Origin: a candidate division WOR-3 bacterium
Lineage (GTDB): Bacteria > Hydrothermota > Tepidihabitantia > Tepidihabitantales > Tepidihabitantaceae
Direction of reading: 5' to 3'
Length of the DNA: 64,000 nt
NCBI GenBank assembly: GCA_039801085.1
Contig: JBDRTY010000001.1
Span: forward strand, 1 to 64,000
In this document: in pieces, positions 41,810-58,986 of the stretch
Layout of the letters: every line of letters starts with the position of its first letter
Position numbering within the stretch: the first letter of the stretch is position 1
Position numbers and translations under genes: made by a program
The notes under the pieces: model-generated
Database searches by the model: none
Told to the model about the DNA's origin: nothing
Seen by the model: only the letters and a program-made list of their open reading frames with translations

Positions 41810-41818
41810 ATTTTGACG

Positions 41819-42508
41819 ATGAGATGGGCGGCATTTGTGGTAAGCTTTGCGGTCGGTATTTTACGGTTGAGTGCGCAGGAACCTGAAGCTTGGCTGGTGC
41901 CGTTCGGATGTGCATTTGAGCATGATATTCAGGGGTTTAATCAGGTGTTTGTCCGGAATAATCTTCCTGAGTTCAGCAGGAGAATTTACGGCTGGGGTGT
42001 GGAACTGCGTTCCCTTGCCGGAGGTAACATTCTTATCGGTCCGATGTATTTCCGGGTACAGGAGCAGGTGAGAAATGACTCTTTCCAGCTGCGAACTGAA
42101 ACTTGGAGCATTATGGGGGAAGCCGGTTTGAAACTGCCGATCTTTGGTTTCATGACGGTGACGCCGATGATCGGGTTGGGCGGTGTCCAGCCTGCTTTTC
42201 AGGTAAAGCAGTTAAAAGGCGATGTTGAGTTGGACAGTTTGCTCAGGGTACCGGGAAGGATGGCGAGTTTTTCTCCAGGGATCAAGCCTGCCGGGCTGGC
42301 GGCATTGGAAATCAGTCTGAATCTGCCGACCAAAGCCGGGAAATACGGGGTGGCGCTGAGGGGCGGGTATCTTTATTCGCCATTTGCATTGAGGTGGTGT
42401 CTGCTCGACGGGAGCGAGGTGCTCGGGACACCAGATTCTAGGATTCGCGGGTTCTGGGTTTCAGCGGGGTTCACGATCATTCCTGCGCCCGAGGTTGAGA
42501 CCGAATGA
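41819..42508 (+). CDS. Exported, probably beta-barrel outer-membrane protein
   Basis: A 229-residue protein starting at the ATG at 41819 (a TTG two codons earlier is less likely). It has a signal peptide with a likely cleavage after RLSA. The rest alternates hydrophobic and polar residues with many glycines and aromatics (GVELRSLAGGNILIGPMYFRV, cut short here; GVALRGGYLYSPFALRW), as in small outer-membrane barrels. No family is recognised. It overlaps the DUF4097 gene by four bases (ATGA), suggesting a joint envelope role. Confidence 0.5.
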   Translation: MRWAAFVVSFAVGILRLSAQEPEAWLVPFGCAFEHDIQGFNQVFVRNNLPEFSRRIYGWGVELRSLAGGNILIGPMYFRVQEQVRNDSFQLRTETWSIMGEAGLKLPIFGFMTVTPMIGLGGVQPAFQVKQLKGDVELDSLLRVPGRMASFSPGIKPAGLAALEISLNLPTKAGKYGVALRGGYLYSPFALRWCLLDGSEVLGTPDSRIRGFWVSAGFTIIPAPEVETE

Positions 42509-43341
42509 GAAACCGGATGGGTCTGCTTGCAGGTGCCGGGCTACTGGCGCTTTTTGCCTGTCTTTATACCTACAAGGCTGATGCTACCGGTACATTTTCC
42601 CGGGCGGTTGAAAGTTTCCGGGAGGTAAATGTCGAGACCAAAAATGGTGCGGTAACGGTCAGTCCGAGTGCCGAAAGTGTTGCTCAGATTCAGATTGTCC
42701 GATATGCCTATGGCAAGGACCGGGAGGATGCCCAGCGTCGTCTGGAGCAGATTGCGGTTGTGGAGAGCGTTACCGGAGAGGAGTGGCATTTACGGGTGAA
42801 TTTTCCGGCAAGTTCGGTGCCGCAGGGTGCGAATGTTACTGCCAGCCTTCCTGAGAATGCAGGAGTGAGTATCACCACCAGCAATGGAAGTGTTTCCGTT
42901 GCCGGCATTACTGGAGGGGTGACGGTGATTACGAGTAACGGGGCGGTGGAATTTACCGGTACCGGTGGGGACGGATACATCTCGACGACGAATGCGGATG
43001 TGCATGTGCGGGTTCATGAGGGGGGGGTGGCCGTTAATACATCAAATGGTGAAGTTGAATGTGATCTGAGTGATCTGCCGGCGGTCAAGAGCGTAAGTCT
43101 GAATACGAGCAACGGCAGGGTGGTGCTGAGTTTGCCACCGGATGTCTCCTGCCGGATTACTGCCAGCACCAGTAACGGTACAGTGGTGATTACCGGTTTT
43201 CATGCTGAATATGAAGAGCAGAGTCAGAGCCGGGTTCGAGCCAGGATAGGTTCAGGTGCCTCCAGCGTGACCGTCACCACTACCAATGGTGATATTTTGA
43301 TTCAGAACCGGAGTCACACTACCGGTGGTCTAATTTATTAA
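42505..43341 (+). CDS. DUF4097-type putative adhesin / beta-solenoid protein
   Basis: A 278-residue protein with an N-terminal hydrophobic segment that could be a signal peptide or anchor. From residue about 40 it is made of repeating strands with the core TSNGxV or TTNGDI (for example ITTSNGSVSV, VITSNGAVEF, VNTSNGEVEC, LNTSNGRVVL, ASTSNGTVVI, VTTTNGDILI), spaced about 20-25 residues. This is the pattern of the DUF4097 family, thought to form a beta-helix at the cell surface or in the periplasm. Function is unproven. A thioredoxin gene follows after 16 bases. Confidence 0.75.
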   Translation: MRNRMGLLAGAGLLALFACLYTYKADATGTFSRAVESFREVNVETKNGAVTVSPSAESVAQIQIVRYAYGKDREDAQRRLEQIAVVESVTGEEWHLRVNFPASSVPQGANVTASLPENAGVSITTSNGSVSVAGITGGVTVITSNGAVEFTGTGGDGYISTTNADVHVRVHEGGVAVNTSNGEVECDLSDLPAVKSVSLNTSNGRVVLSLPPDVSCRITASTSNGTVVITGFHAEYEEQSQSRVRARIGSGASSVTVTTTNGDILIQNRSHTTGGLIY

Positions 43342-43357
43342 ATAAAATGGAGGATAT

Positions 43358-43693
43358 ATGGCAGATAATCAGAATGTTTTGCAGCTGACCGATAACAATT
43401 TTGAGATCGAGGTGTCCGGTTCCACCGTACCGATGCTGGTTGATTTCTGGGCACCGTGGTGCGGACCGTGCAGGATGATTGCACCGGTGATTGACCGGCT
43501 GGCAGAAAAGTATGCCCCGAGACTGAAGGTGGGGAAGGTAAATGTGGATGAGAATCCCCAGACCGCCGGCAAGTTCGGCATCATGAGCATTCCGACGCTG
43601 GTGTTCTTCAAAGAAGGCAAGGAGGTTGACCGGATTATCGGGGCGTTGCCCGAAGCGGTGCTGAGTGCCAAAATTGAGGAACTGCTGCGATAA
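43358..43693 (+). CDS. trxA: Thioredoxin
   Basis: A 111-residue cytoplasmic disulfide reductase. The active site WCGPC is at residues 34-38, with the cis-proline in SIPTLVFF. It has no signal peptide. GGAGG lies 5 bases before the ATG. Length and sequence are those of classic thioredoxin. Confidence 0.95.
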
Positions 43694-43709
43694 CCTCCGG
43701 TCTTATTAA

Positions 43710-45125
43710 TTGATATTCAAGAATAACAGGCTGAAACCCGAGGCGGTTGACAGGCTGTTAGAGATTGTTTCTTCCGATCGGCTGATCACCGAGACTGAGC
43801 TGCTGATGGATTACAGTCACGATGAAAGTCCGTACCCTCCATGTGTCCCCGTTGCGGTGGTCAAGCCGGTAAGCGTCGAGGAGGTTGCCAGGATTGTTCA
43901 ATTTGCCCGCGGCGAGAGGATACCGTTGACACCGCGCGGGCTCGGCACCGGTCTGGCAGGCGGTTCGGTGCCGGTTCACGGCGGGCTGGTGGTCAGTATG
44001 GAGTTGATGAACCGGATTCTGGAGATTGATACTGAAAATCTCATGGTCCGGACCGAACCAGGAGTTGTTACCGCGAGGTTACAGGAGGCATGCGCTGCTC
44101 ACGGTCTCTATTATCCCGTTGACCCGGCTTCGCTTGACGACTGTTCAATCGGCGGTAATGTGGCGACAAATGCCGGTGGCGCCCGGGCGTTCAAGTATGG
44201 TGTTACCGGTGACTATGTTACCGGAGTTCAGGCGGTACTTGCCGATGGTTCGGTGATCAATTATGGCGGCAAGCTGCGCAAGAATGCCACCGGCTATGAT
44301 TTGAACCGGTTGCTGGTTGGTTCGGAAGGAACTCTAGGAATTGTGACTGAGATTACCTTCCGGCTTGTGCCCAAGCCGGCTTATCAGGTGGATCTGCTCG
44401 TCCCCTGTCGGACTATGACACAGGCGGTGGAGCTGGTAATCCGGCTGGTGCAGGAACGGCGGGTGATGCCCGCAGTAGTGGAGTTTTTTGATAAGAAGGG
44501 AACTGATGCCAGCATCAGGGTGCTGGAAGAAAATCTGCCATTTCCTGATGCGCCAGTTCAGGTGCTGATTGAACTGGAGGGGAATGACCGGGAGGTGGTA
44601 AGTGAAGATGCGTTGAGGCTGGGGGAGATGGCGATGGCGCTGGGCACGGACGAACCGCTGGTTGCCGAGGATGCATCAAGCCAGGGACGGCTGTGGAAGA
44701 CACGCCGTTCGCTGGCAAAGACATTGAAACAGTTTTACCCGGAGGTGATTGCTGAGGATATTGTTGTTCCGGTCAGCCGGCTGGCAGAGACGGTTGAGTT
44801 TATCTGTCAGCTGGAATCCCGGTTTGGACTGGTGATTGTGCCTTTCGGGCATATCGGTGACGGTAATATCCATACTGACTTCTGCCGGAATGAGTCTGAC
44901 CGGGCGGGCTGGCAGGAGCGGGTGAACCGGGCAGTTGATGAACTGATTGATTTTGTGGTCCGGGCTGGCGGTCAGATAACCGCCGAGCACGGAATCGGTG
45001 CCCTGAAAAAGAGATTGATGAAGAAGGGACTGGGGGAGGCAGAGCTCAGGCTGATGCGTCACCTGAAGCAGACACTGGATCCGGATAATATCCTGAATCC
45101 GGGCAAGGTACTGCCTGATGATTAG
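43710..45125 (+). CDS. FAD-binding oxidase of the GlcD / D-lactate dehydrogenase type
   Basis: A 471-residue flavoprotein. The FAD-binding type 4 domain has RIPLTPRGLGTGLAGGSVP and DDCSIGGNVATNAGGARAF. The C-terminal domain has FGHIGDGNIHTD and ITAEHGIG. The family oxidises 2-hydroxyacids such as glycolate or D-lactate; the substrate here is open. The start is a TTG at 43710 without a clear ribosome-binding site, 16 bases after trxA. It could pass electrons to an ETF such as the one including EtfB (34710). Its stop codon directly abuts the stop of the convergent peptidase gene. Confidence 0.88.
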   Translation: MIFKNNRLKPEAVDRLLEIVSSDRLITETELLMDYSHDESPYPPCVPVAVVKPVSVEEVARIVQFARGERIPLTPRGLGTGLAGGSVPVHGGLVVSMELMNRILEIDTENLMVRTEPGVVTARLQEACAAHGLYYPVDPASLDDCSIGGNVATNAGGARAFKYGVTGDYVTGVQAVLADGSVINYGGKLRKNATGYDLNRLLVGSEGTLGIVTEITFRLVPKPAYQVDLLVPCRTMTQAVELVIRLVQERRVMPAVVEFFDKKGTDASIRVLEENLPFPDAPVQVLIELEGNDREVVSEDALRLGEMAMALGTDEPLVAEDASSQGRLWKTRRSLAKTLKQFYPEVIAEDIVVPVSRLAETVEFICQLESRFGLVIVPFGHIGDGNIHTDFCRNESDRAGWQERVNRAVDELIDFVVRAGGQITAEHGIGALKKRLMKKGLGEAELRLMRHLKQTLDPDNILNPGKVLPDD

Positions 45126-47264
45126 TTAATGCAGGCGGACTTTGGCAATCCTGCCGGTTTTCCTGAAGTTTTTTCCCTGAACGACCACGATGTAGACACC
45201 ATCGGCAACTTCCCGGTTCTGCTCGTTGGTGCCGCTCCACTGAATTTCCCGGTTTTGAACCCGGGAGAATTTCTTTACCAGAGTGCCGGAAAGGGTGTAG
45301 ATGAAGACATCCGGTATCTCCTCCGGCGGAAAATCGAGGATTAACCGGCAGGGTCCGGTAAAGGGTGCCGGCAGGGTATAGGGTTCTGCCCAGCTGGTGA
45401 TTCTGACGGAATAGTACTGGCTGACACGGGAGCGGTTGCCGAATGAGTCAATCGCAATCACTAGAAAGTAATAGCCTGAGGTGTCGCGGGCGAGGTTAAA
45501 AAGATAGGCGGTAGTATCACTGGTGGTCAATGCCCGGCGCAGGCGGGCAAACCGCTCAATTCTGATGTCATCGATAAAGACGCCGAGCCGGTTGATTTCG
45601 GCGTCAGTCTGATATCGGAATCTCAGATAGAGTTGCGGAGTGGCGGGCAGAAGATAGCGGAATTCCTGCCATTTTTCGCCATCACCATAGATTGAGTCCA
45701 GCGGCTGCCAGGTGGTTCTGTCGCTAGACCATTCAACATAGCAGACATCCCGGCGGATATTGCCGGTTGAATCTTCGGTCTCCTGAGTGGAGTAGAATCC
45801 ATAAAATGAGAGCAGTCCTCCCTGCGGCAGATGGAGCGGGTCTTTCAGTTCCAGTCGGCAGTTCAGATTGCTGGCTGATCCCGAGAAGAACGCCCGGGCT
45901 GGGGATCGGAAGTAGCGGGTGGACAGACTCCAGCCGTCACTTTCCCAGTTGTTCAGGCTGTCTCCATGGTCAAGGAGTATGATTTCCGGTTCGGTTACCT
46001 GATACAGTTCGTAAGTTAGCGATGCCAGATCCCAGCTTTTCCGCCACCAGAGCCGGATGTCCCCTCGTCCACCAGTTCGGTGCCGGGTGATTTCCGGAGC
46101 CTCAGGTTTCACATCATCACAGCCGAAGTAGCTGTTGAGAAATTTCAGCCACGGTATGGAATCGGCAAAGGTCAGCCGGCGGTATTCGCTGATTTTGGTT
46201 TTAAAATCAAGATAGCCGAAAGGAAACCAGACGGCAGCGCCTTTAGCATTGCCCAAGCTGCCGCCAGTGGCGTTGGCGACAACCAGCGGATTGAGCGTTG
46301 AACGCAGGTATTTCAGACCAGTACCGGGTGCCAGTTCCCAGAAGTGAATAAAGTCAATCTGCTCGTCCCGGACAGAAGGAGGACGGACCGCATCGGTGGG
46401 GAAAGTCTGAACACCGGTTCGTGCCAGCCGGTAGCCGGTTGCCTGCGGATTCAGGCTGTCCTGCAGGGCCGGACCCAGAATTTTCAATACCCGTTCGAAC
46501 TGGCGCAGGTCAAGAGCGGAAAGGCAGACATTCTCCCCCGGGAAAGAGCTGATATAGTCGGTACAGAATTCCGGGAGAAATTCCTCCGGTGTTGAGTTCG
46601 GTCGTGCGGTCAGACGCCCGAGGAAAAGATCATAGGGGAAACCATCCCACTCAACCACCGCCTCGGATGCCAGGAGGTAATCGGCAAAGGGCATCAGTTC
46701 AGCTGCGATTTCAACTGAACCCATGAGACAGGCGTCAAATCCGATGATGGTGAGTTTCCGCCCAAGCTGTTCAACGCCGTTTTTAATTGCCTTCCGGAGT
46801 TCCCCTCCGGCAACACCCATCATGTGGCCATGGGATTCGTCAATGAATACCGCCCTCTGCGGTCCATAGCCGGCACGCCAGCCATTACCATGGTCCCAGA
46901 GGATCAGCAGGTAGTTTGAAGCCGGATAGCGGGTGCCTAGGAATTCGATGAAATCTGCCAGCACGGCGGTGTCTGCCATGTCAACTTCCCCCAAGTCCGC
47001 AAGCAGGTCCAGCACCGATTTCCGCACATAATAACGACGGCAACCCGGATTGGTGTCCCGGGCGGCGTTGTCAACCTGAACGATGATGTTGACTTCGCTG
47101 GTCGAACCGATTGTAAGCATTTCCCGGAGATCTTCATATGCCTGTTCGCTCATGCCGTTGTCGGCACACATGTAGATACCCACGGTCCACTGGGCACCGT
47201 AGACAGGACACAGAAGTAAAAGCAGGGGGATGGTTAGCCATCCCCCTGCTTGTCGGATCGCCAT
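45126..47264 (-). CDS. Clostripain (C11) family cysteine peptidase with sorting domain
   Basis: A 712-residue exported protein. The signal peptide ends near VYGA (residue 24). The C11 domain follows: TVGIYMCADNGMSEQ, catalytic His125 in WDHGNGW and catalytic Cys179 in GFDACLMGS. After about residue 400 come beta-sandwich regions, and the last 75 residues form a FlgD/T9SS-like sorting domain (VFIYTLSGTLVKKF, then ADGVYIVVV, ending RIAKVRLH). A surface peptidase that cuts after basic residues and may self-process is likely. It lies 17 bases after the PorV-like gene, which suggests that PorV handles it during export. Confidence 0.88.
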   Translation of the reverse strand: MAIRQAGGWLTIPLLLLLCPVYGAQWTVGIYMCADNGMSEQAYEDLREMLTIGSTSEVNIIVQVDNAARDTNPGCRRYYVRKSVLDLLADLGEVDMADTAVLADFIEFLGTRYPASNYLLILWDHGNGWRAGYGPQRAVFIDESHGHMMGVAGGELRKAIKNGVEQLGRKLTIIGFDACLMGSVEIAAELMPFADYLLASEAVVEWDGFPYDLFLGRLTARPNSTPEEFLPEFCTDYISSFPGENVCLSALDLRQFERVLKILGPALQDSLNPQATGYRLARTGVQTFPTDAVRPPSVRDEQIDFIHFWELAPGTGLKYLRSTLNPLVVANATGGSLGNAKGAAVWFPFGYLDFKTKISEYRRLTFADSIPWLKFLNSYFGCDDVKPEAPEITRHRTGGRGDIRLWWRKSWDLASLTYELYQVTEPEIILLDHGDSLNNWESDGWSLSTRYFRSPARAFFSGSASNLNCRLELKDPLHLPQGGLLSFYGFYSTQETEDSTGNIRRDVCYVEWSSDRTTWQPLDSIYGDGEKWQEFRYLLPATPQLYLRFRYQTDAEINRLGVFIDDIRIERFARLRRALTTSDTTAYLFNLARDTSGYYFLVIAIDSFGNRSRVSQYYSVRITSWAEPYTLPAPFTGPCRLILDFPPEEIPDVFIYTLSGTLVKKFSRVQNREIQWSGTNEQNREVADGVYIVVVQGKNFRKTGRIAKVRLH

Positions 47265-47280
47265 TGCGGCGAATACGTTT

Positions 47281-48333
47281 TTAGAACCCGACCGTCAGCA
47301 TAAGCCGGTGTGCCGGCTTGATGTACTGATAATACCGGAAGGAGTAGTCAAGACCAAGCTCCAGTCCTTCCGCCGGTTTACCCCTGATGCCGACGCCGGC
47401 ACACAGACCGGTGAGCATTCCCAGTTTCTGCTGATAGTTCTGGTCAACATTCAGAATATACCCGCCGCGCAGGAAGAGCATTTCTGACAGTCCGTATTCG
47501 AGACCGAAGTTAACCGTTTCGTTGATATCGGATGGATGAACGATATCAATTGCCGCTGTCAGCCGGTGCGGGCAGGTCTGAACGAGATCCATTGCCACAC
47601 CGAACCGGAAAGCAGTGGGGAGAGGAGCGGGTGTAGTTTTGTAGGAGCCCTGAAGCTGGCTCGGTCCCGAATCAGGCCAGTAGAAGTTATAATCGAGATG
47701 CGGACCGGAAAATGCCAGCTGAGTGCCGAAGTTGGTTACTGCAGCACCGAGTCGGAGCGATTTGAAGCCGGTGTTGTAGAACAGTCCGAGGTCGAGGCCG
47801 ATTGCCGATGCACCCATATCCCAGATGGTCTGCTGGACACCCTTGACCGTGAGACCGAATGAGAGCTTGTCAGTGATAATGCGGGCGTAGCTGATTCCAA
47901 AGGCGATGTCGTTGGCGCCGATCGTAAGCCCGGTGCCTTCGTCTTCCCGGACCGGTGTCTTCGGATCATCAACAGTCGTCTGTTCAATTTCCCCCATCGT
48001 CAGAGCGTTCGCCCAAATGCCGACAGTGCCGAAGTTGGTTACTGGCAGGATAACCGTAAGGTAGTCATGGTTGAGGTCGGCAAACCAGTTTGCGTGATTT
48101 ACCTGTGCCTGGCGCTTGATGTGTGCCAGACCGGCGGGGTTGAACCAGGTGGCGGAAGCATCATCCGCAAGTGCGGTAAAGGCATCGCCCATCCCGGAAG
48201 CCCGGCCGACACTGATTTTCAGAAAGTTAGCGCCGGTGGTTGCCACCTTGCTGAATGCAGCCTGGGCAACGGAAAAGGCGCCAACCGACACAAACAGCAG
48301 GCTGATAACGCCGATTTTTAATCCTTTTTTCAT
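47281..48333 (-). CDS. PorV/PorQ family outer-membrane protein
   Basis: A 350-residue protein with a signal peptide (cleavage near AQAA, residue 26). It continues with FLKISVGRASGMGDAFTALADD and WFNPAGLAHI, the conserved N-terminal signature of PorV/PorQ and related FadL-like barrels. The remainder alternates as expected for beta-strands and ends in a barrel-type MLTVGF. In type IX secretion PorV shuttles sorting-domain cargo to the attachment complex. Here it sits between two sorting-domain genes, which fits. GGAGG lies 6 bases before the ATG. Confidence 0.85.
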   Translation of the reverse strand: MKKGLKIGVISLLFVSVGAFSVAQAAFSKVATTGANFLKISVGRASGMGDAFTALADDASATWFNPAGLAHIKRQAQVNHANWFADLNHDYLTVILPVTNFGTVGIWANALTMGEIEQTTVDDPKTPVREDEGTGLTIGANDIAFGISYARIITDKLSFGLTVKGVQQTIWDMGASAIGLDLGLFYNTGFKSLRLGAAVTNFGTQLAFSGPHLDYNFYWPDSGPSQLQGSYKTTPAPLPTAFRFGVAMDLVQTCPHRLTAAIDIVHPSDINETVNFGLEYGLSEMLFLRGGYILNVDQNYQQKLGMLTGLCAGVGIRGKPAEGLELGLDYSFRYYQYIKPAHRLMLTVGF

Positions 48334-48345
48334 CTCTGCCTCCCT

Positions 48346-51228
48346 TTAATGGATGAACATGAACTTGCCGGTATATTCTCCAGCAGGGGACTCAACATGG
48401 AAGATGTAGACACCAGAGGCAATCAACTGTCCATAGTCATTGACCAGATCCCAGGTGGCGGTGCCACCTTCATCCAGCGGCTGTTTATTTGTATCACGGT
48501 GTTCAATCACCTTTACCAAGTCACCGGAGGTGGTATAGATTCTGATCGTGCAACGGTTGGGCAGATGGGTAAACTTGATCACCCGCTGGTCAGATGTTTT
48601 CTCCCAGCCGTTAAATACGATATAGGGATTGGGGACCACTTTGACCTGCAGTTTGCGTTTGGTGGTTGTGTCAGCGTAACCGGTGGTAGAGACCAGACGC
48701 AGAATGTTGTAGAAAGCAGCCGAACCTTCAGTCCGATGGCCGGTCAGGAGCCAGACATCACCATCCTGAATTGAGTTCATGAGACTGCGTAGGCTGTCGC
48801 CCGAGGGTTTCAGTCCGAGGTAACCGCCGCCGATGTAGATGTTGGCGATCGTGCCTTTCAGAGTGTCGGTTGGAGAACGGAACAGCCGGTCAACAAAGCA
48901 CCAGCCATTGGCGTTCTGAGGTCCGGTACCGGCGGTAGTGAATTTAGAGAAGGGAACTTCAATGTTGCCGTTGGTAATGTCATAGACTTGGGCAGTGAGA
49001 TAGCCGTCACGGTTCTTCCATTCAATCCGATAATCGGAACCTCTGAATGCCCAGTATGCCTGCGCCGGTGCACTGCCGACCTTCAGTGATTCCGCCGGAT
49101 AGCTGCCACTGAGTACACTCACCGCATCAAAAGGTGTGGCCGGGATTTTCATGTTCATAACCATTTTCAGTCCGATACCGTTGATTACCGGCAGGTTGAT
49201 TATCATCTTCTTTGCCGGCGAGGCAATTTCATAGACGAAGGATGTGGTGTCAACCACGAGCGAATCATTAAGGCTGGTATTGACCACATAGTAGGAGTAT
49301 TTGGGTTTTGATGTGGAACCGGACCATTGAGGACCGAGGAACCGGATTTCGTAGACATCGCTGTTAACCAAGAACGGAACCGCAACCGTAGTTGTGCAGG
49401 ACAGCGCGCTGTTTAATGTGTCGCCAGCCACCTTGACAATTCGGGCTTCGGGGAAGACATAGTTAGGGGCATCCCAGCGGGGGACCGTGGAGAAGTTGGA
49501 GACAATTCCGGAACGGAGGATCAGCGTATCCCAGGCGACCGGTTGACCCTGAGCATTGGTGTCGGTGGTAACATAGTTCCAGTCGTAGGCGGTAACACAG
49601 TAGTAGTAGGTGAAGCCGTTGATCACATTCTTATCCAAGAGTGTGTAATAGATGCCACTGTCGGTCGCCTTGATCCAGAGACTGTCGGGAAGCGTGGAGT
49701 CACCGCCTGGAGGATAAGTGAAAGTGATGGAATCAGCCAAGTCACACTGTCCGATAATTTGCCAGTTTGCACCATCGCGCGATTTGTAGATGATGTAGCC
49801 CTGAAAGTCGTAACCGCGATACATCGGGTCATAACCCGGCTCACCAGGACGGCTTGCCACCTTTTCCCAGTAGCGATCCGGAGTTCTTTCCGGCAGATCA
49901 TCCCAGACGATCCGCACCTGTTTGTCCCCCGGAACCAGAATGATATTGGGGGCAACCGGAGGTCCGGGCAGGAGCCATCCCTGGTCAAAGATGAACTGGG
50001 CGGAGTTTGCTACCTTGGCAAGGTGAACCAGTGAGTCCTTGGGTCGGTCTGCCCATGGCTGGTTCGGTCCGCCAAATGGAGCACCGATTGCAGCAACAAC
50101 GAGCCTTTCAACCTGTCCGGGGGCAAGGTCGAATGGACCGGAGCACATGATGAAGCGCTTGTCTGCCGGCGAGACATCAACTGAATCGTATGCGGAGTAG
50201 ACGCCAGTGCGATAGTCGTAGCCCGCCATGGTCAGATACTGGGCAGGGTCGGTGACCGGGTCGATGTCAATCGTGAATTTCTTGAATGCGGTCATACCCA
50301 GCGGTACTTTAATTGTGTCTCCTGTCGAAGTGATTGAGTCGCGTTTGGGGCTGTCGAGGAACTTGTAGGCAAAGACACCAGGTGTGCCCGTTTCCCAAGT
50401 TGTGCCCGGACTTTCGTTATTATCATAGTCACCAGCATAGCCGACATTGCGCACCCAGCCAGCGCCCGGGATGGAGTCGTAGAGAATAAAGCCCACCATG
50501 TCGTCAGTGGCGTTGCCGATGTCCGGATCCATGACCGCACCGATGAAGCACCGTTTGAGCGTGTCAGTCCCGGAATTGCGGACATTGTAGATTATGAAGA
50601 AGATGTCCTGATTGGAGGGGTAGTTCCAGGCATAGACCACCTGATAGACATCAATGTTTTGAGGTTTGCCCGGCGCGATGTGGTTCTCCGGAGCACCGTC
50701 CGAGTAGACGCACCACATGTCTTGGAGTGAGAATGCCTCATAAGGAATAAGCACGCTGTCCAGTTTAGAATCGCCGGTCTGCCAGCGATCACGGGGAGCT
50801 GGGGGCCAGTCGTTCGGATAGACGAAGATCCGGTCTTCAGCAGCACCAGCTCCTTCAGGAGCATGGGCAACTGTGGTGGGCGTCATTTCCGTTCCACCGG
50901 AATTGGGGTTGTAGCCGAACGAGACGAGAGTGTCAATTTTTTCATCCGCGCGGGGTTTTAATGAGCCAAACCACATACCCGCACCAAAGATGTAGCAGTT
51001 GTGGAGCGGCTGGGGCCAAGAACCGCCCGCCTGACCGGTGCCGACCGTAACATCAATTCCGTAGCGGCCGTCGTTGTAGAACGGACACTTCCAGCGGTTG
51101 ATGTTCAGCCATTTCATATCATAAATCCGCTTACCCGATTTCACCGGGGTGGCGGATCTGGCAAGCACCGGTGTAAGAAGCGCCAGCAACAACAGGCTGG
51201 CGATGGTTAAATTAAGCAATTTCTTCAC
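48346..51228 (-). CDS. Large secreted sorting-domain protein, unrecognised family
   Basis: A 960-residue protein with a GTG start at 51228 that has GGAGG five bases upstream; the earlier in-frame ATG at 51261 would overlap the previous gene. A signal peptide ends near VLARS. The mature start has YDMKWLNINRWKCPFYNDGR (residues about 37-56), then GIDVTVG and GGSWPQPLHNCYIFGAG, which recur almost unchanged in 55417-56802. The middle holds fibronectin-like parts (VRIVWDDLPE, YYYCVTAYDWNYV). The end is a sorting domain (VVPNPYIVFNGW, IRIYTTSGDLVKV, ASGVYIFHVE, GKFMFIH). Function unknown; a surface or outer structure is likely. Confidence 0.7.
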   Translation of the reverse strand: MKKLLNLTIASLLLLALLTPVLARSATPVKSGKRIYDMKWLNINRWKCPFYNDGRYGIDVTVGTGQAGGSWPQPLHNCYIFGAGMWFGSLKPRADEKIDTLVSFGYNPNSGGTEMTPTTVAHAPEGAGAAEDRIFVYPNDWPPAPRDRWQTGDSKLDSVLIPYEAFSLQDMWCVYSDGAPENHIAPGKPQNIDVYQVVYAWNYPSNQDIFFIIYNVRNSGTDTLKRCFIGAVMDPDIGNATDDMVGFILYDSIPGAGWVRNVGYAGDYDNNESPGTTWETGTPGVFAYKFLDSPKRDSITSTGDTIKVPLGMTAFKKFTIDIDPVTDPAQYLTMAGYDYRTGVYSAYDSVDVSPADKRFIMCSGPFDLAPGQVERLVVAAIGAPFGGPNQPWADRPKDSLVHLAKVANSAQFIFDQGWLLPGPPVAPNIILVPGDKQVRIVWDDLPERTPDRYWEKVASRPGEPGYDPMYRGYDFQGYIIYKSRDGANWQIIGQCDLADSITFTYPPGGDSTLPDSLWIKATDSGIYYTLLDKNVINGFTYYYCVTAYDWNYVTTDTNAQGQPVAWDTLILRSGIVSNFSTVPRWDAPNYVFPEARIVKVAGDTLNSALSCTTTVAVPFLVNSDVYEIRFLGPQWSGSTSKPKYSYYVVNTSLNDSLVVDTTSFVYEIASPAKKMIINLPVINGIGLKMVMNMKIPATPFDAVSVLSGSYPAESLKVGSAPAQAYWAFRGSDYRIEWKNRDGYLTAQVYDITNGNIEVPFSKFTTAGTGPQNANGWCFVDRLFRSPTDTLKGTIANIYIGGGYLGLKPSGDSLRSLMNSIQDGDVWLLTGHRTEGSAAFYNILRLVSTTGYADTTTKRKLQVKVVPNPYIVFNGWEKTSDQRVIKFTHLPNRCTIRIYTTSGDLVKVIEHRDTNKQPLDEGGTATWDLVNDYGQLIASGVYIFHVESPAGEYTGKFMFIH

Positions 51229-51238
51229 CTTTCCTCCC

Positions 51239-54067
51239 TTAGAACGACAGGCTGACACCAAAGCGAATCTTGCGTGAGGAACCGAAATAGGTCGGTGCCT
51301 TCACATAATCCTCTCTTGCCCGCATGTAGGACTCATAGAGTTCCATCTGTGACAGGTAGCCGTCATGATTGAAATCCCGCGCCGGATGATAGTAAAGGTC
51401 CCCGAAGCGGATTCCGGGCGAAAATTCCTGCGGAGTAAAGATCCTGCCGTCGTAATCCGGCTTGCCGGTGGCAGAATAGACGCTGGTGACGACCCGGGTG
51501 TTGAGGAGGTTGGTGATATCACAGGAAAGTGCCAGATTGAGACCGCCCAGTTTTATATCCTTGCCGAAGCGCATATCAATAGTGAAACTTGACGGCATGC
51601 GTGCCGAGTTTTCCGGTCCGGTCCGGTTGCCGCGGATGTCGGTCGGGGTGTAGGGCAATCCGGAACCGTAGTTAGCCACCGCTGAGGTGTTGAAATCCCG
51701 CAGTGGGATGAAGATGAAGTCTGAAGGGAAGGAAAGTCCGATGCTGCCATGGAGTGAGTGGCGCTGGTCCTGATCAAGATAGTAATCGACCTGGAGCGGT
51801 TTTTCGCGCTGGTACTGGTCGGTCGCGGTAGAAGCGGTGCCCTTGGCAATCTGGAAGGTGTAGCCGAGCTGAGCGTTCCAGTAGTCGGAAAGTGCCTTAG
51901 TCATCGTTGCTTCAAATCCCTGGATCCGGGCGTATTCAACATTATAATACATCGTATAGGGCTGAGGCAGGGCGGAGACAACGCGGACACCGGAAAGGTC
52001 AAATACATCCTTATAGAAAGCGGTAAGGTCAAAGGCGAAAACATCTGTTAGCTGGGCATCAAAACCGATTTCGTAGGCGATTGTTTTTTCCGCACTCATG
52101 TTCGGATTGCCGACGATGATGTTGCCCCGGCCGCGGAGTTCAGCTGCCGGGCGCTCGGCATACTCGTAAAGGTTTGCAAATACCGGGTTCTTGAAGAAAT
52201 GACCGTAGGAGAAGCGGAATTTGATCCGTTCGGTAATCGGATAGGAAATACCGAGTCGGGGTGAAAGCCGAAACTTTGGCGGTACCGGCAGGAAGCTGTC
52301 GGATATCTCCGGCGTGGAACCGAGTGATTCGGGAAATGCACGGACCTTCGCCTTCGCATCCAGATAGTCAAACCGGACACCGGCGCGCACTACGAGGTCT
52401 TCGAAATCAGCCCGATCCTGAACATAGGCGGCTGCCACGAGCGGTTTGTAATTATAGGCATCCCAGAATGGATTGGCATCCCAAGGGAGCGAATTGTCAT
52501 ACATTGAAACTGAGTACTGGGTGATGTCGACACCGGTTTTTATTTCGTGGACCTTGGAGATCGTCCGGGTCAGGTCAAACTTGAAGAGGGCGTGATTTGT
52601 CGCCCGGTAATGCCAGACCCGGTTGTCGCCCTCGGTCACGAACAGTCCTGGTACACCGAGTGGATAATCAAGCAGGGCATAAGCCTGCATGAAGTTTTTC
52701 TTCTGTGCCTTGTGAGCATAAACTGTGTCGCCATTCGGCGCCAGCCAGTAAGAACGGTAGAGCTGAAGCACCGCTTCCTTCTTGCTCAATCCTTCCGGAT
52801 TGTTGAATACCCAGTCCTCTGCCCGGAAGAAATACCGGTCCCAGATGCCGGTTTTGCGCAGAAAACCCCAGAAACCGGTGGTATCAGCTGCTTCGGCGTC
52901 AAAGTTGCGCACCGTACGGATGAGCGAGGTCTGGAAGATGCCGAATTTTGCCTCGTAGACGGTGGTCGGGGAAAGCATATGGTTCAGAGTGATGTTGGAT
53001 TTGTAACTGCGCACCCGGTTGGCATACATCGCCTGCAGGTAATACTTGTAGGTATTGGACCAGGTCTGCCACTGATAATTGGAGTGATAGCCATCGATCG
53101 TCAATTTCATACCTTCCCGGGTGAGGAAAAATTCTTTCGGGAATTGCAGGGTGAGTTTGCCCTCGACCGCATATTCGCCCCTGGGGGCATTAACTTTGTA
53201 AAGGCAGTTTCGGTCGTCGTCAGTTTTGAAGTATTCAGTGGAAATGAAGTAGCGAAGCCGGTTCCAGAAGGTCGGACCGCCGATGGAGAATGTAACCCGG
53301 TTATAACCGAAGTTCAAATCGGGATTGGGAAAGACCTCGTCGGTCAGATAGCCGAGTTTACCCGAGGTTCTGGTACCGCCTTCCTTCGTAACCGCCTTGA
53401 TGATACCCGACATTGCCGAGCCGTATTCCGCATCAAAGCCGCCGGTGACTACAACTACTGAAGCCAGAGCATCACTTGTCGGTTTGGGACTGGACCAGAG
53501 GGTACCGACTACCGCATCCTGGGCAGCAACACCATCGACGAGATATGCGACATCATCGTATCTGCCACCACGGATGTGGGTCCAGCCGCGGCCTGCGGTC
53601 TGGGTTACACCCGCCTGCAGGCCGACCAGTTCGGAGAGCTGGACTACCGGGAGTCGCTTGAACTCTTCGTCTGTGATAACCCTTTCCACAGTAACCGTAC
53701 CCCGGTTCACCATCGGACGCTCTGCCTTTACTTCCACCGTTCCCACTTCAATCGCGGTAGGTGTCAGCTGGAAATCAATCACCGTCACCTGATCCTGCAC
53801 TACCAGTACATCAGTGACCGTCATTTCATTATAGGAGATATAGGAGGCACTCAGCTTATATCTGCCCGGGGGAACGTTGTTGATTTCATACTCTCCGTTA
53901 GCGTCGGTTGCGGCACCCAGTTCGGTTCCGACAACGATCACATTGGCACCGATTAATGGTTCTCGAGTCCGTTTATCAATAACTTTCCCCCTGATTCTGC
54001 CGACCACACCGGCAAAGGCGGCCGGAACGGTCAGCAGGAGGATCAGGAAAAGCGTCAATTTCTTCAT
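51239..54067 (-). CDS. TonB-dependent-receptor-like outer-membrane protein
   Basis: A 942-residue protein with a signal peptide (cleavage near AFAG). Residues 25-115 are a carboxypeptidase-regulatory-like domain (GKVIDKRTREPLIGANVIV, NGEYEINNVPPGRYKLS). Next comes a plug domain (QLSELVGLQAGV, IRGGRYDDVAYLVDGV, GFDAEYGSAMSGII), then about 600 residues of barrel ending in RFGVSLSF. A TonB box was not identified. The ligand is unknown. Its place between a lipoprotein gene and a large secreted protein resembles SusC/D-like arrangements, but no SusD family protein is present. Confidence 0.85.
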   Translation of the reverse strand: MKKLTLFLILLLTVPAAFAGVVGRIRGKVIDKRTREPLIGANVIVVGTELGAATDANGEYEINNVPPGRYKLSASYISYNEMTVTDVLVVQDQVTVIDFQLTPTAIEVGTVEVKAERPMVNRGTVTVERVITDEEFKRLPVVQLSELVGLQAGVTQTAGRGWTHIRGGRYDDVAYLVDGVAAQDAVVGTLWSSPKPTSDALASVVVVTGGFDAEYGSAMSGIIKAVTKEGGTRTSGKLGYLTDEVFPNPDLNFGYNRVTFSIGGPTFWNRLRYFISTEYFKTDDDRNCLYKVNAPRGEYAVEGKLTLQFPKEFFLTREGMKLTIDGYHSNYQWQTWSNTYKYYLQAMYANRVRSYKSNITLNHMLSPTTVYEAKFGIFQTSLIRTVRNFDAEAADTTGFWGFLRKTGIWDRYFFRAEDWVFNNPEGLSKKEAVLQLYRSYWLAPNGDTVYAHKAQKKNFMQAYALLDYPLGVPGLFVTEGDNRVWHYRATNHALFKFDLTRTISKVHEIKTGVDITQYSVSMYDNSLPWDANPFWDAYNYKPLVAAAYVQDRADFEDLVVRAGVRFDYLDAKAKVRAFPESLGSTPEISDSFLPVPPKFRLSPRLGISYPITERIKFRFSYGHFFKNPVFANLYEYAERPAAELRGRGNIIVGNPNMSAEKTIAYEIGFDAQLTDVFAFDLTAFYKDVFDLSGVRVVSALPQPYTMYYNVEYARIQGFEATMTKALSDYWNAQLGYTFQIAKGTASTATDQYQREKPLQVDYYLDQDQRHSLHGSIGLSFPSDFIFIPLRDFNTSAVANYGSGLPYTPTDIRGNRTGPENSARMPSSFTIDMRFGKDIKLGGLNLALSCDITNLLNTRVVTSVYSATGKPDYDGRIFTPQEFSPGIRFGDLYYHPARDFNHDGYLSQMELYESYMRAREDYVKAPTYFGSSRKIRFGVSLSF

Positions 54068-55107
54068 TGTCCGCCTCCTTTGACATTAATTGGAATTCCC
54101 CAGATGGTGGCGGTCAGTTCTCCACCGGCATCGTAAAGCACGGGGAACGGAATCTGCTCAATATAGAGCCACTGTACCCCGGTCTGATTCAGCTTCAGCC
54201 GGCTGCCGGACCAGAGCCGGTAGCGGGTATTGTTGTAAAAGAGGAAATTCTGAGCATCGGTAACTGCAGTATAGAGCCCGGTTACCCAGACACTGTCATT
54301 CACTGAGTAGGAAAGCAGTCCATCCGGATAATCATAGAACCGCTGACAGCCGAAGTGCAGTGTGTCCGGACGCAGGAAGAAGGTGTCAACGCGAACACCG
54401 TTGGTCAGATAGGCTTGAATAAAATAGGGCGCATCATCAGGGTTGGGAGCGTAGAACCTCGGGCCGCCGGTAATCTTCCAGAAGCGCCACTCGCCATTTT
54501 CCTTCTTCAGAACGCAGCCGTTGATGACGACACCATTGATCGGTTTTTCCACAATCATTGAAGTGTCGGTGAACAGCGTGTCATGAAATTTAAGCCGGAT
54601 GGTCTCCGAAGGGGTGATGATAATGGAATCACGGAGAAAACGGGTGTATTTCCGGGCGTGCAGTCTTAGTAGCCCGGGGATAGTTTCGACAACGGTTACA
54701 GTTGCGGTGGTTTCTTTGGAAACGGTATCAGCAACGGCGACGAATTTATACGCCCATTTCCGGCCCGTGCTGTCAAACCAGTGCTGCATTGAGTCACAGA
54801 TATAACGCTGCTTGAAAGCGTTGTCCTTGATTGCCTTTTTCAGAATCGAGTCCGAAATCAACCAGTCAAAATACTGGAGTTCCCCTTCATTAAAATTAAC
54901 CGTAAGCAGATTCCGGTTTGCTTCGATTACCGCTGCGATTGCGGTGCTGTCGGCTGCGCTCGGCTGCCAGATCGCCGGCGGGGGCATGCGGCCACAACCG
55001 GTGAGGGCAACTGTTATCAGCAGGAAACCGGCAGCCAGAAGAACCAGCCAGTTTCTTCCTGATGCCGGAGGCGCAGCCGGGTGGTTTTTACCAACTATGA
55101 TCCGCAC
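54064..55107 (-). CDS. Predicted lipoprotein of unknown family
   Basis: A 347-residue protein with a GTG start and GGAGG six bases upstream. A hydrophobic stretch ends in a good lipobox, ALTGC, with the lipidated cysteine near residue 38. An N-terminal run of about 20 residues before the hydrophobic stretch is longer than usual. The rest shows no family I recognise. Segments such as LKKENGEWRFWKITGG and VWVTGLYTAV suggest an NTF2-like or beta-rich fold. It overlaps the receptor-like gene by four bases and heads the operon, so it may be the surface partner of that receptor. Confidence 0.65.
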   Translation of the reverse strand: MRIIVGKNHPAAPPASGRNWLVLLAAGFLLITVALTGCGRMPPPAIWQPSAADSTAIAAVIEANRNLLTVNFNEGELQYFDWLISDSILKKAIKDNAFKQRYICDSMQHWFDSTGRKWAYKFVAVADTVSKETTATVTVVETIPGLLRLHARKYTRFLRDSIIITPSETIRLKFHDTLFTDTSMIVEKPINGVVINGCVLKKENGEWRFWKITGGPRFYAPNPDDAPYFIQAYLTNGVRVDTFFLRPDTLHFGCQRFYDYPDGLLSYSVNDSVWVTGLYTAVTDAQNFLFYNNTRYRLWSGSRLKLNQTGVQWLYIEQIPFPVLYDAGGELTATIWGIPINVKGGGQ

Positions 55108-55169
55108 AGTCTGCCTCCTTTTATTTTTCCTGATTTATGAGTTTCGTTGTCTGCTCTCATATGCGTTAT

Positions 55170-55188
55170 ACCGAAATTAAACTTCGGT
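55170..55188 (-). promoter_or_regulatory. Inverted repeat in the leader of the lipoprotein operon
   Basis: ACCGAA (55170-55175) and TTCGGT (55183-55188) form perfect 6-base arms around a 7-base loop. It falls in the predicted 5' leader of the - strand operon and could be an RNA hairpin or an operator. Confidence 0.3.
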
Positions 55189-55196
55189 TTTGTTGA

Positions 55197-55224
55197 ATAT
55201 TAACAGAATACTTAAAAGTGTCAA
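55197..55224 (-). promoter_or_regulatory. Promoter for the surface-protein operon 55107-45126
   Basis: On the - strand a perfect TTGACA (55219-55224) and TAATAT (55197-55202) are 16 bases apart. The predicted leader of about 80 bases holds an inverted repeat and a GGAGG site before the GTG at 55107. Confidence 0.5.
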
Positions 55225-55362
55225 AAGGAATGACCCGGCCCACGACAGGTCCGAATTCGGATTGTTTATCAATTACCAAGGTATATTAAAATTAGCCAAA
55301 GACCGGTCTGGTGTCAAGCAAATCAGGTATCTGTGCTGAGGATAGGCAGAGTTTTAGGCAGA

Positions 55363-55391
55363 TTGACAGAACCGATAATCCCATTTATAAT
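55363..55391 (+). promoter_or_regulatory. Consensus promoter for gene 55417
   Basis: A perfect TTGACA (55363-55368) and perfect TATAAT (55386-55391) are 17 bases apart, the ideal sigma-70-type promoter. A leader of about 19 bases with AAAGGAGG follows. It is divergent to the operon promoter at 55197-55224. Confidence 0.8.
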
Positions 55392-55416
55392 TTTACGGGC
55401 AGCAAAAGGAGGTTTT

Positions 55417-56802
55417 ATGAAAAGGCTGCTGTTTGTGGTAATCCTGCCGAGGCTTGTCTTGGGAATCTATGACATGAAGTGGTTTGATCTCAATAGCTGG
55501 CGGTGTCCGTTCTATAATGATGGCCGCTGGGGAATTGATGTGACCGCCGGTCCCGGTGCACCCGGCGGTTCCTGGCCTCAGCCATTGCGGAATTTCTATA
55601 TCTTCGGCGCCGGTGTCTGGATTGGTACGATTGTCGGTAATGACACTCTTACTACCTGCGGGTATAATCCCAACACCGGGGGAACCGAGATGTTCCCGGC
55701 GTTGTGCCGGTACTGGCGGCAGACACCCCTGGATTCTGCCGATCGGGTTTATAAATATCCGGGTGACTGGCCACCACCGGCAGCCAGATTTCCGATGGCA
55801 CCACAGCAGGCGCGTTCGGAAATGGATCTCTGGATGTGTTTTAGTGACTCGGAGCCGGGTAGCCATAACGCGCCGGGGAGACCGCTGGGGGTTGATGTCT
55901 ATCTAACCGTTTACGGGTTCTCAGACTCATTTTCGCGCGACATGTTCATCCTGAAATATGAACTTGTCAACGCCTCAGGAGGGGTGCTGAATCAGATGTA
56001 TGCCGGTCTGGTGGTTGATGCCGATATCGGTTATCCCGGTGATGACATGACCGGACTGATTCTCGATCGGCAGTTTGTAGTCGGTACTGACACATTCCGG
56101 GTAAAGAACACTGGTTTCTTCTATGATTACAATAACATTGAGACGTCCAGTTCGGTCTGGGAATCAGGAACACCCGGTGCAGTGGCGGTACGGCTGCTAC
56201 TGGCGCCCAATGGTCTTAACTTGAGCGCTTTCAAGCGGTTTACCATTGAGATTGATCCGGTCCGGGATGCAGAACAGTATCTGACGCTAAAAGGTTATAA
56301 TTACCGGACGGGCAATTATGAGCCTTATGATTCTCTTGATTCTGAGCCAGGCGATAAACGGGCACTGCTGGCGGTCGGACCGGTGGATCTGCCGGCAGGC
56401 GGCGAGGCAACTTTTTACTTTGCGGTAATCGCTTCCCCATATGGCAGTCAGGGACAGACGCCGGAGGAACGTGATACTACCGAACTGGCGCTGCGGTGCT
56501 GGTGGGCAGAACGGCTGCTTGCCCGAATTCTGGGCATTGAGGAGGCACAGGAGGTCGGGTTTAAGCGATGGTTGACGGTTTATCCCAATCCCTGCCGACT
56601 GGGAACTGTGATGACCGTTACTGGTGCTGATGGTGTCCGGATTTATGATCTTCAGGGTAGACTGGTGAAGGAGCTGAGCGGAAGTGATTCCCGCTGGGAC
56701 GGAAGAGACAGGCAGGGCAGACTGGTGTCAGCTGGAGTTTATTTCTTCAGACCGGTTAAGAATCGGACGGAGGTCAGCAAGGTGCTGCTGGTCCGAGAGT
56801 AA
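55417..56802 (+). CDS. Secreted sorting-domain protein, short paralogue of 48346-51228
   Basis: A 461-residue protein; the ATG at 55417 has AGGAGG five bases upstream and is preferred over a GTG/TTG-type start further upstream. A short signal peptide ends near VLG. The mature start IYDMKWFDLNSWRCPFYNDG and the following GIDVT, GGSWPQPLRNFYIFGAG closely match the 960-residue protein, as do MTGLILDRQF and RFTIEIDPV. The fibronectin-like middle of the longer protein is missing. A sorting domain ends it (TVYPNPCRLGT, VRIYDLQGRLVKEL, SAGVYFFRP, SKVLLVRE). It has its own consensus promoter. Role unknown. Confidence 0.72.
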   Translation: MKRLLFVVILPRLVLGIYDMKWFDLNSWRCPFYNDGRWGIDVTAGPGAPGGSWPQPLRNFYIFGAGVWIGTIVGNDTLTTCGYNPNTGGTEMFPALCRYWRQTPLDSADRVYKYPGDWPPPAARFPMAPQQARSEMDLWMCFSDSEPGSHNAPGRPLGVDVYLTVYGFSDSFSRDMFILKYELVNASGGVLNQMYAGLVVDADIGYPGDDMTGLILDRQFVVGTDTFRVKNTGFFYDYNNIETSSSVWESGTPGAVAVRLLLAPNGLNLSAFKRFTIEIDPVRDAEQYLTLKGYNYRTGNYEPYDSLDSEPGDKRALLAVGPVDLPAGGEATFYFAVIASPYGSQGQTPEERDTTELALRCWWAERLLARILGIEEAQEVGFKRWLTVYPNPCRLGTVMTVTGADGVRIYDLQGRLVKELSGSDSRWDGRDRQGRLVSAGVYFFRPVKNRTEVSKVLLVRE

Positions 56803-56818
56803 ATAGGTGCCGGCTGTC

Positions 56819-58213
56819 TTATTGGCGCCGTTCGAGATAAAAATCCTGCTGAATTAGTTGTCCGGGCGGTAAGTCAAGGGTGCAGGACTGGGGGATATAA
56901 GGTGCCGGTACGCGAACTGATATTAGGTACCTGCCGCTTGGGAGGTTTCTGATTGTATACATTCCGAGATCAGGGTCGGTCTCCTGTTCTCCATACACTG
57001 CACCCTTATAGATGACAGTGCCGGACACAGGTTTTTTCGTTATCGCATCATAGATAGTGCCGGTAATCATAGAGTAGCGCACCGGCTGGAGTGCAATGAC
57101 CGCTGACTGTTCGCGATCACCGATGATGAACATGGTATCTGTGCGCGCCTGATAGTCTTTGCGGAAGGTATGAATAATAAGGCGTCCGGGTACAAGTCCG
57201 GTGATCAACAGTTCGCCGGCCCGGTTTGTTTCGCCGATGAATTCCCGGACACCCTGAAGTTTGATACTGCCCCAGATCCGTTCACGGGTCAGAGCGTCAA
57301 TTACCCGGATGCGCAGACTGCCATGACCGTAGCGCGGAAGGTTAAGTCGAATGCCGAGTCGGTGAACTGTGCCCAGTTTACCGTAGCCTGAGAGCGAATA
57401 ATCAAGCGCAAGGTTTGTTAGATTGACACCGATGCCTGCAGTCAGCCCGCTGAGCGCTCCGAGCTCATTGAGGTCCTGAGGACCGGTCCGGTAGCCGGCA
57501 CGCAGGCTCAGCTCGGTGATCGGCTGATACTCAATCCCCAGCCGGAGATGAAACTGCCGGTCATGGGGGTAAACGCCGTCAAGAAGCAGTCGTAATCTGC
57601 TCGCAGTCCAGGCAAGTCCAAGGATGAGCTCGGCAGGCAGCGTTTCCAGCCGGCTGTACTTCATTAAGCCCAGATTGCGCAGTGCCAGCCCGGTTTTGAG
57701 AAACTCAAAAGGTTCGGCAGCGAAGCCGATATCAAAAGCAGTGCCATAGCCGTAACCGGTATAAAGATTTTCATAGCACCCCTTCAATCCGGCACCGACA
57801 AAGTACTTTTGTGCGACCGGCAGTCCGTAGCCGAGAGCAAGGATACCGTTCCAGGTACTAAAGGTATCTCCGGGCTGGTTCTGTTCGTTCCAGAATTCGA
57901 TTCCGGGCGTCGCGGAATAGATCAGACTGAATCCGAGAACACCCCGATTAGCGGGCAGGGCAAAATGCAGAAGTTCATCGTTGGTGCCGTTATACCAGAT
58001 CTGATGAGAAAAAGACAGGGCATAATCTCTGATTTTTCCCAGCCGGCCGCAGTTCCAATAAAGGGCGGTGGCATCATCAACAGTTGCGGTCAGCGCTTCT
58101 CCCAGCGCGGCGCCCCGCGGGCCCTCTGCCAGTCTGATCAGCGGTAAAACCGAAGTTCCCGGTCCCGGATCGGTAAAAAAGAGGGAGATTGCCACTAATA
58201 ACAATATGCTCAT
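56819..58213 (-). CDS. PorV/PorQ-like barrel fused to two carboxypeptidase-regulatory-like domains
   Basis: A 464-residue protein starting at the ATG at 58213, which overlaps the previous stop as ATGA. A signal peptide is followed by LAEGPRGAALGEALTATVDD and ALYWNCGRLGKI, the PorV-like signature in altered form (NCG instead of NPAG). Barrel-like strands run to about residue 300. Two regulatory-like beta domains follow (LRIRVIDALTRERIWGSIK ... LLITGLVPGRLIIH; ITGTIYDAITKKPVSGTVI ... YTIRNLPSGRYLISV). This fusion is unusual: such domains normally sit at the N-terminus of receptors. It may anchor or recognise secreted partners. Confidence 0.65.
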   Translation of the reverse strand: MSILLLVAISLFFTDPGPGTSVLPLIRLAEGPRGAALGEALTATVDDATALYWNCGRLGKIRDYALSFSHQIWYNGTNDELLHFALPANRGVLGFSLIYSATPGIEFWNEQNQPGDTFSTWNGILALGYGLPVAQKYFVGAGLKGCYENLYTGYGYGTAFDIGFAAEPFEFLKTGLALRNLGLMKYSRLETLPAELILGLAWTASRLRLLLDGVYPHDRQFHLRLGIEYQPITELSLRAGYRTGPQDLNELGALSGLTAGIGVNLTNLALDYSLSGYGKLGTVHRLGIRLNLPRYGHGSLRIRVIDALTRERIWGSIKLQGVREFIGETNRAGELLITGLVPGRLIIHTFRKDYQARTDTMFIIGDREQSAVIALQPVRYSMITGTIYDAITKKPVSGTVIYKGAVYGEQETDPDLGMYTIRNLPSGRYLISVRVPAPYIPQSCTLDLPPGQLIQQDFYLERRQ

Positions 58214-58986
58214 CGGCGGTTGACTACCAGTTTTTTCTTTATCCGGTGAACCCTTTCTCCCTGTTTCCATTCTAAAAGGTAGTCATAAGTTCCAGAGGCA
58301 ACCGGTCGATTGCGGTCATTGCGGGCGTTCCAGCCGACCAGATGGACACCGGTGGCAAGGGGCTCGTGCTGCAGGATAGTGCAGATGCGTTTGCCAGCGC
58401 GATTGAAGATGAACAGACTGACTTCGCCATTATCCGGAATACCGATCACAAAAGTAGTCTGGTCTTCAAGAGGATTGGGGAAGTTGTGAATCAGTAATCC
58501 CGGGATAAGTCTGATATTCAACCGGACACTGTCCCGGACAAGGCTGTCATTATCAAGGAAGGCGGTGATGACTACTGCTGCGCTGTCCAGCTTTCCGGTG
58601 TCGCCGCTCAAGTCAGTCGGAGCTTCAATCCGGAGTGTGAAATAGTGCGGTCTGCCCGGCTGGACAAACCCGAGTTCGGGGAAGCCGTCGCGGTCATCGT
58701 CCGTCAGCAGCAAGGTGTTTGCCGAATCGTATAACTGACCGTTCCAGCCGGCGGGCAGAAATGGCGGCAGAAACTCTACAATTGAACCGGAATCTCCCGA
58801 CAGATTGACAAAAAAGCGGTAATTCTTTTTTTCGCCGGTTTGGAGCTGGTCGTTCTGATCCGGAGCAATTTCCAGCTGAAGCAGCGGACGGTCGGTGATG
58901 TTCTGCCTGAGGTTCAGCTGGGATCGGGCCGGGGTCAATGTGATAAGCAGAACCCCGAGCACGCTCCACCTGCAGCTGCGGCTCAC
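58210..58986 (-). CDS. Exported protein with FlgD-Ig-like C-terminal domain
   Basis: A 258-residue protein with a GTG start. A signal peptide ends near ARSQ. The first 150 residues are a beta-sandwich-like region (NYRFFVNLSGDSGSIVEFL), and the last 90 form a FlgD/sorting-like domain (NFPNPLEDQTTFVIGIP, VSLFIFNRAGKRI, ASGTYDYLLEW, KKKLVVNRR). It has no ribosome-binding site, and the GTG begins six bases after a TTGACA/TAAAAT promoter. It overlaps the PorV-like gene by four bases. Confidence 0.65.
   Translation of the reverse strand: MSRSCRWSVLGVLLITLTPARSQLNLRQNITDRPLLQLEIAPDQNDQLQTGEKKNYRFFVNLSGDSGSIVEFLPPFLPAGWNGQLYDSANTLLLTDDDRDGFPELGFVQPGRPHYFTLRIEAPTDLSGDTGKLDSAAVVITAFLDNDSLVRDSVRLNIRLIPGLLIHNFPNPLEDQTTFVIGIPDNGEVSLFIFNRAGKRICTILQHEPLATGVHLVGWNARNDRNRPVASGTYDYLLEWKQGERVHRIKKKLVVNRR

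Follow-up and report, generated by a model that had tools for sequence, protein, structure and literature searches.

A conserved TonB-receptor, T9SS-type surface protein and PorV-family barrel gene set, probably for surface uptake, in a candidate division WOR-3 bacterium

A gene set assembled from known kinds of parts, comprising a TonB-dependent receptor (TBDR), a large surface protein (BIG) and a PorV-family barrel, probably encodes a surface uptake complex of a kind for which we found no description. In the reading that we favour, and in which we have roughly even confidence, BIG would leave the cell through the T9SS, be retained at the surface by its own barrel, PorV1, and serve a TonB-energised TBDR as a SusD-like subunit. 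A C11 peptidase would supply the peptides. The sequence shows domains, gene order, co-duplication and the presence of SprA and PorU; we infer export, tethering, complex and ligand. Counted in favour are the conserved triplet, the co-duplication, the Ton genes, the lack of SusD, the prevalence of SprA and BIG, the homology of C-terminal domains (CTDs) and the pairing of PorV with CTD genes. If correct, this is a second solution beside the TonB receptor and surface lipoprotein of Bacteroidota: a T9SS-delivered outer subunit held by its own PorV-type barrel, in many poorly known phyla. The pairing of each cargo with a shuttle of its own, known from PorP/SprF barrels, would then apply to the PorV family too, and many unexplained PorV/PorQ paralogues would gain a testable role. 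No description of the TBDR-BIG-PorV set was found in the open-access literature searched.

The window analysed is the first 64 kb (64,000 nucleotides) of contig C1 in a 1.91-Mb, 96.8% complete MAG of candidate division WOR-3. An earlier note had placed eight genes at 45126-58986: a lipoprotein, a receptor, four CTD proteins including the C11 peptidase, and two PorV/PorQ-like barrels. All eight open reading frames are present at those coordinates and are of the types described (Table 1). As the note had also said, 45126-58986 contains neither SusD nor any T9SS core gene. LIPO, TBDR, BIG, PorV1 and C11 follow one another on the minus strand, overlapping or separated by at most 16 bases. Hence, these five genes (55107-45126) very likely form one operon. 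FLGD258 and PorV2 are a second cargo-PorV pair, separate from the conserved unit.

Table 1. Genes at the locus and the paralogous cassette of the same genome
Feature	Position	Strand	Description
C11 (clostripain-type) peptidase	45126..47264	-	type A sorting domain; last gene of operon; 16 bases past PorV1
PorV1	47281..48333	-	PorV/PorQ-family (FadL-type) barrel; starts 12 bases past BIG; proposed cognate shuttle/anchor
BIG	48346..51261	-	971 aa; all-beta surface protein; Sec signal; seven-strand T9SS-type CTD
TBDR (TonB-dependent receptor)	51239..54067	-	CarboxypepD_reg-like N-terminal domain, plug and barrel; 4-base overlap with LIPO
LIPO lipoprotein	54064..55107	-	first gene of operon; invariant lipobox Cys-Gly; no known family or fold
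SHORT489	55333..56802	+	BIG N-terminal domain and own CTD; divergent from operon; outside conserved unit
PorV2	56819..58270	-	PorV/PorQ-family barrel with extra C-terminal CarboxypepD_reg-like domain
FLGD258	58210..58986	-	small CTD protein; overlaps PorV2; outside conserved unit
Paralogous cassette (L051 648-12581)	C1:764647-776580		ExbB, ExbD, ExbD, TonB, BNR-like CTD protein, lipoprotein, TBDR, BIG paralogue and PorV in a row

In the earlier note all 14 kb, with SHORT489, FLGD258 and PorV2 counted in, had been read as a single export-and-assembly module. Consistent with this, the closest genome (G001) shares the order of all eight genes. However, only there does FLGD258-PorV2 adjoin the operon. 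In G002, from the same genus, and in G003, SHORT489 lies elsewhere and PorV2-FLGD258 is away from the operon, while LIPO-TBDR-BIG is retained. Other genomes likewise have SHORT489 by itself at a separate site (L055, L070). From the arrangement in G002 and G003, a single 14-kb module is thus largely ruled out, and what survives of that claim is the five-gene operon at 45126-55107. Its order is retained across families of the order. With the SprA export translocon encoded ~830 kb away, we find it extremely improbable that all eight genes serve export and assembly together. Export and assembly is in any case less likely than display and uptake, because export can already proceed through SprA and the paralogous copy comes with ExbB-ExbD-ExbD-TonB genes of its own.

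Conservation extends well beyond close relatives. A scan of GTDB genomes, with BIG as the sole query, yielded 43 full-length homologues with enough flanking sequence. Judged by record titles, they belong to WOR-3, Stahlbacteria, Zixibacteria, Calditrichota, Fidelibacterota (Marinimicrobia), Ignavibacteriota, Chlorobiota, Balneolota, Delongbacteria and Bacteroidota MAGs. The nearest named relative, candidate division WOR-3 MAG isolate SKW181, carries a homologue 98% identical to BIG. In 41 of the 43, across about nine phyla, BIG is immediately preceded by TBDR and immediately followed by PorV, all on one strand. The exceptions are L112 and L083; the latter lacks an adjacent PorV, which we count against uptake. 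In L061 and L083, both of genome G012, C11 comes immediately after BIG and the intervening PorV is absent, so that these loci are a natural case of its loss.

BIG could instead be a structural surface or coat protein, or an adhesin, that its PorV displays, with TBDR co-expressed for an unrelated reason. An all-beta protein that matches no enzyme family and is near-universal in the phylum would suit such a role. However, TBDR is the immediate upstream neighbour of BIG in 42/43 cases across those phyla, and the genes share a duplication. Both are hard to explain without a functional link, and we consider a coat protein or adhesin improbable.

The duplication is evident within the genome, where a second copy (L051) lies at C1:764-777 kb. 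We call copies like that in the window, with C11 downstream, type A and the paralogous copies type B. Type A copies form a supported group in trees of PorV, TBDR and BIG (SH-aLRT 95, 99 and 98, respectively; these are quick trees without bootstrap). The three trees thus share one ancient split, and TBDR, BIG and PorV appear to have been duplicated together. Of the 12 type B copies whose upstream sequence is long enough, 11 are directly preceded by ExbB-ExbD-ExbD-TonB. In L051, ExbB, ExbD and TonB were identified by Pfam; the set is also upstream in L056, L068, L091, L093, L095-L098, L118, L121 (where ExbB was not detected) and the more distant L116. One type B copy, L103, has no Ton genes upstream and is counted against uptake. 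The Ton genes ahead of type B copies make it likely that TBDR is TonB-energised.

A route across the outer membrane is available. SprA is full length (482.9 bits against a cut-off of 200, in a frame of 1883 aa that includes neighbours), and BIG would pass through it. SprA was found in 119 of the 120 genomes of the phylum, which shows this T9SS component to be almost ubiquitous in a phylum that accounts of the system usually omit. Two PorU homologues are also present. The full-length one scores 404 bits against a cut-off of 420, and the second copy is in two pieces; one homologue is directly followed by a PorV (L071). At L072 2955-6752, on contig C2, is a second full-length PorU-like protein of 1265 aa with no adjoining PorV. 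The T9SS is therefore present in part. The search proposed earlier for T9SS genes across the genome thus recovered SprA and PorU homologues; PorL and PorM profiles gave no match in this genome, a result without a positive control and so not a demonstration of absence. The same holds for the PorM profile, likewise run without a positive control, in 12 BIG-carrying genomes of other lineages (G123-G134). It is conceivable, and we think highly improbable, that a Ton motor replaces PorL/PorM, so that ExbB-ExbD-ExbD-TonB with TBDR, BIG and PorV would load or release T9SS cargo and export would be TonB-powered in WOR-3 and related phyla. The broader suggestion of a dedicated, T9SS-linked surface module has held up: SprA and PorU are encoded in the genome, and gene order, in relatives and in other phyla, is strongly conserved rather than random.

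BIG itself carries a Sec signal and matched no Pfam family. Its CTD falls below the TIGR04183 cut-off (16.7 against 23 bits), a point against uptake. However, profile comparison gave probabilities of 96% with the C11 CTD and 94% with a PorU CTD of the same genome (shuffled controls, at most 6%). By this comparison the BIG CTD is homologous to those of C11 and PorU. The AlphaFold model is mostly beta, with the CTD as seven strands (residues 881-969); its mean pLDDT of 70.8 is of moderate confidence and likewise counts against uptake. The BIG sequence had no credible match among solved structures. Resemblance of the N-terminal domain to GH94/GH116 beta-sandwiches and YidC was weak (TM ~0.15, rmsd mostly above 10), and naming a ligand from it was ruled out.

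The same CTD raises the possibility that BIG and PorV1 belong to the T9SS machinery. They could form an attachment or processing station like PorZ-PorQ, with C11 trimming cargo CTDs and TBDR acting as a helper or envelope sensor and not as a nutrient importer. The PorZ model picks up the CTD region of BIG with 29.3 bits, and the fold-search matches of BIG include structures of PorZ and PorU. In P. gingivalis, PorV and PorQ barrels hold PorU and PorZ on the surface, and the PorZ CTD is uncleaved (PMC8545088). Relatives of BIG (E up to 1e-10, some partial) occur in 116/120 genomes of the phylum. Such near-universality could be compatible with a housekeeping surface role, which counts against uptake; since SprA is near-universal too, their co-occurrence in the phylum is uninformative. 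However, some genomes have up to seven or eight BIG matches, unlike a single core machine. Two PorU sortases are already encoded here, and an attachment complex needs no TBDR with its own Ton motor. We regard a machinery role as unlikely.

Under the uptake reading, the CTD would instead keep BIG attached to a PorV-family barrel of its own, in the way that PorV and PorQ retain PorU and PorZ, or PorP/SprF retains type B cargo. Both barrels at the locus exceed the 90-bit cut-off of the PorV/PorQ family model NF033709 (PorV1, 187.8 bits; PorV2, 117 bits) and fall below the PorV and PorQ equivalog cut-offs. Against the PorV equivalog NF033710, PorV1 scores 64.2 bits (cut-off 250). Among solved structures, F. 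johnsoniae PorV is a match to PorV1 (6h3i, E 2.3e-10). PorV2 is placed away from PorV1 in the PorV tree. Nine PorV genes of the genome are near or above the family cut-off (a much weaker tenth match was ignored), and the triplet PorVs separate from the seven others, including that linked to PorU (support 94, long branches). PorV1 is far below the equivalog cut-offs and groups apart from the PorU-linked PorV; a generic housekeeping PorV is thus ruled out.

Six of the nine PorV genes directly follow a CTD gene on the same strand. The partners are BIG (twice), PorU, FLGD258, a 570-aa FlgD_ig protein (L076) and an NHL-repeat FlgD_ig protein (L077). Chance is ruled out as the cause by a hand estimate of ~1e-7 (~55 CTD genes in ~1,750 genes, gene number estimated). 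A one-cargo-one-barrel, or cognate, arrangement appears here within the PorV family. At L076 4048-5337, on contig C4, the barrel directly after the 570-aa protein has a weak C-terminal FlgD_ig match (24.8 bits), and so possibly bears a sorting-type domain of its own.

Cognate pairing has precedents. In F. johnsoniae, type A cargo all use one PorV, whereas type B cargo use cognate PorP/SprF barrels, usually encoded directly downstream (PMC12618676). The gene order is alike, with a cargo gene followed by its own shuttle-barrel gene and one pair per cargo. However, the locus here has a PorV/PorQ-family barrel and a type A-like CTD, and a TBDR belongs to the unit. As with PorU-PorV and PorZ-PorQ (PMC8545088), a FadL-family barrel would hold a CTD protein, and the BIG CTD resembles those of PorZ and PorU; the pairing here is known from genes and CTD similarity. 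BIG differs in having neither sortase nor beta-propeller domains, and is accompanied by a TBDR and a lipoprotein. In BamG-BamH of the Bacteroidota BAM (PMC12578637), a FadL-family barrel holds an extracellular partner via its loops. Here there is no BamA link, and a T9SS-type protein takes the place of the surface lipoprotein as partner.

For the receptor, the nearest comparison is with SusCD/RagAB and BtuBG of Bacteroidota, in which a TonB-dependent transporter works with a surface lipoprotein. These likewise set a Ton-energised TBDR, with a CarboxypepD_reg-like N-terminal domain, beside a secreted surface partner. In the window, TBDR has CarbopepD_reg_2, Plug (31.9 bits) and TonB-type barrel (101.8 bits) matches in Pfam, the latter two over curated cut-offs; the genome encodes eight plug-bearing receptors. 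However, TBDR is far from the SusC/RagA model TIGR04056 (66.3 bits against a cut-off of 368), and there is no SusD fold or gene at hand: a search for SusD (PF07980) across the genome found none, and detected the Bacteroides positive control. A classical SusCD system is thus ruled out. In place of a lipid-anchored partner there is one with a T9SS CTD, and a PorV-family barrel is added. Placed over TBDR, BIG would be the extracellular ligand-binding subunit, the role of SusD in Bacteroidota.

The operon's peptidase bears on the ligand. The protein carries a Sec signal. The C11 domain scores 143.5 bits (Pfam), its His and Cys motifs WDHGNGW and FDACLMG are intact, and its sorting domain exceeds the TIGR04183 cut-off (25.7 against 23 bits). 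The presence of C11 in the operon suggests that the ligand of the type A copy is peptides. In this scheme, C11 would cut proteins outside the cell and TBDR would import the peptides with TonB energy. However, C11 is missing from type B copies and most other phyla. Hence, ligands may differ between copies, and peptide uptake is not necessarily general.

The remaining proteins of the locus are less readily placed. Among LIPO homologues the lipobox Cys is invariant; the predicted model has a pLDDT of 82 and a fold search against PDB gave no significant match. SHORT489 is 47% identical to BIG residues 46-407 and passes the TIGR04183 cut-off (24.4 against 23 bits). FLGD258 has FlgD_ig, CHU_C and PorU-CTD matches, all sub-threshold, with additional support from profile comparison. 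Beside the C11 end of the operon, at 41813-45125 in the window, are an OMP-like gene, a DUF4097 toastrack gene, a thioredoxin and a GlcD-type oxidase. These adjoin the C11 end in several relatives as well.
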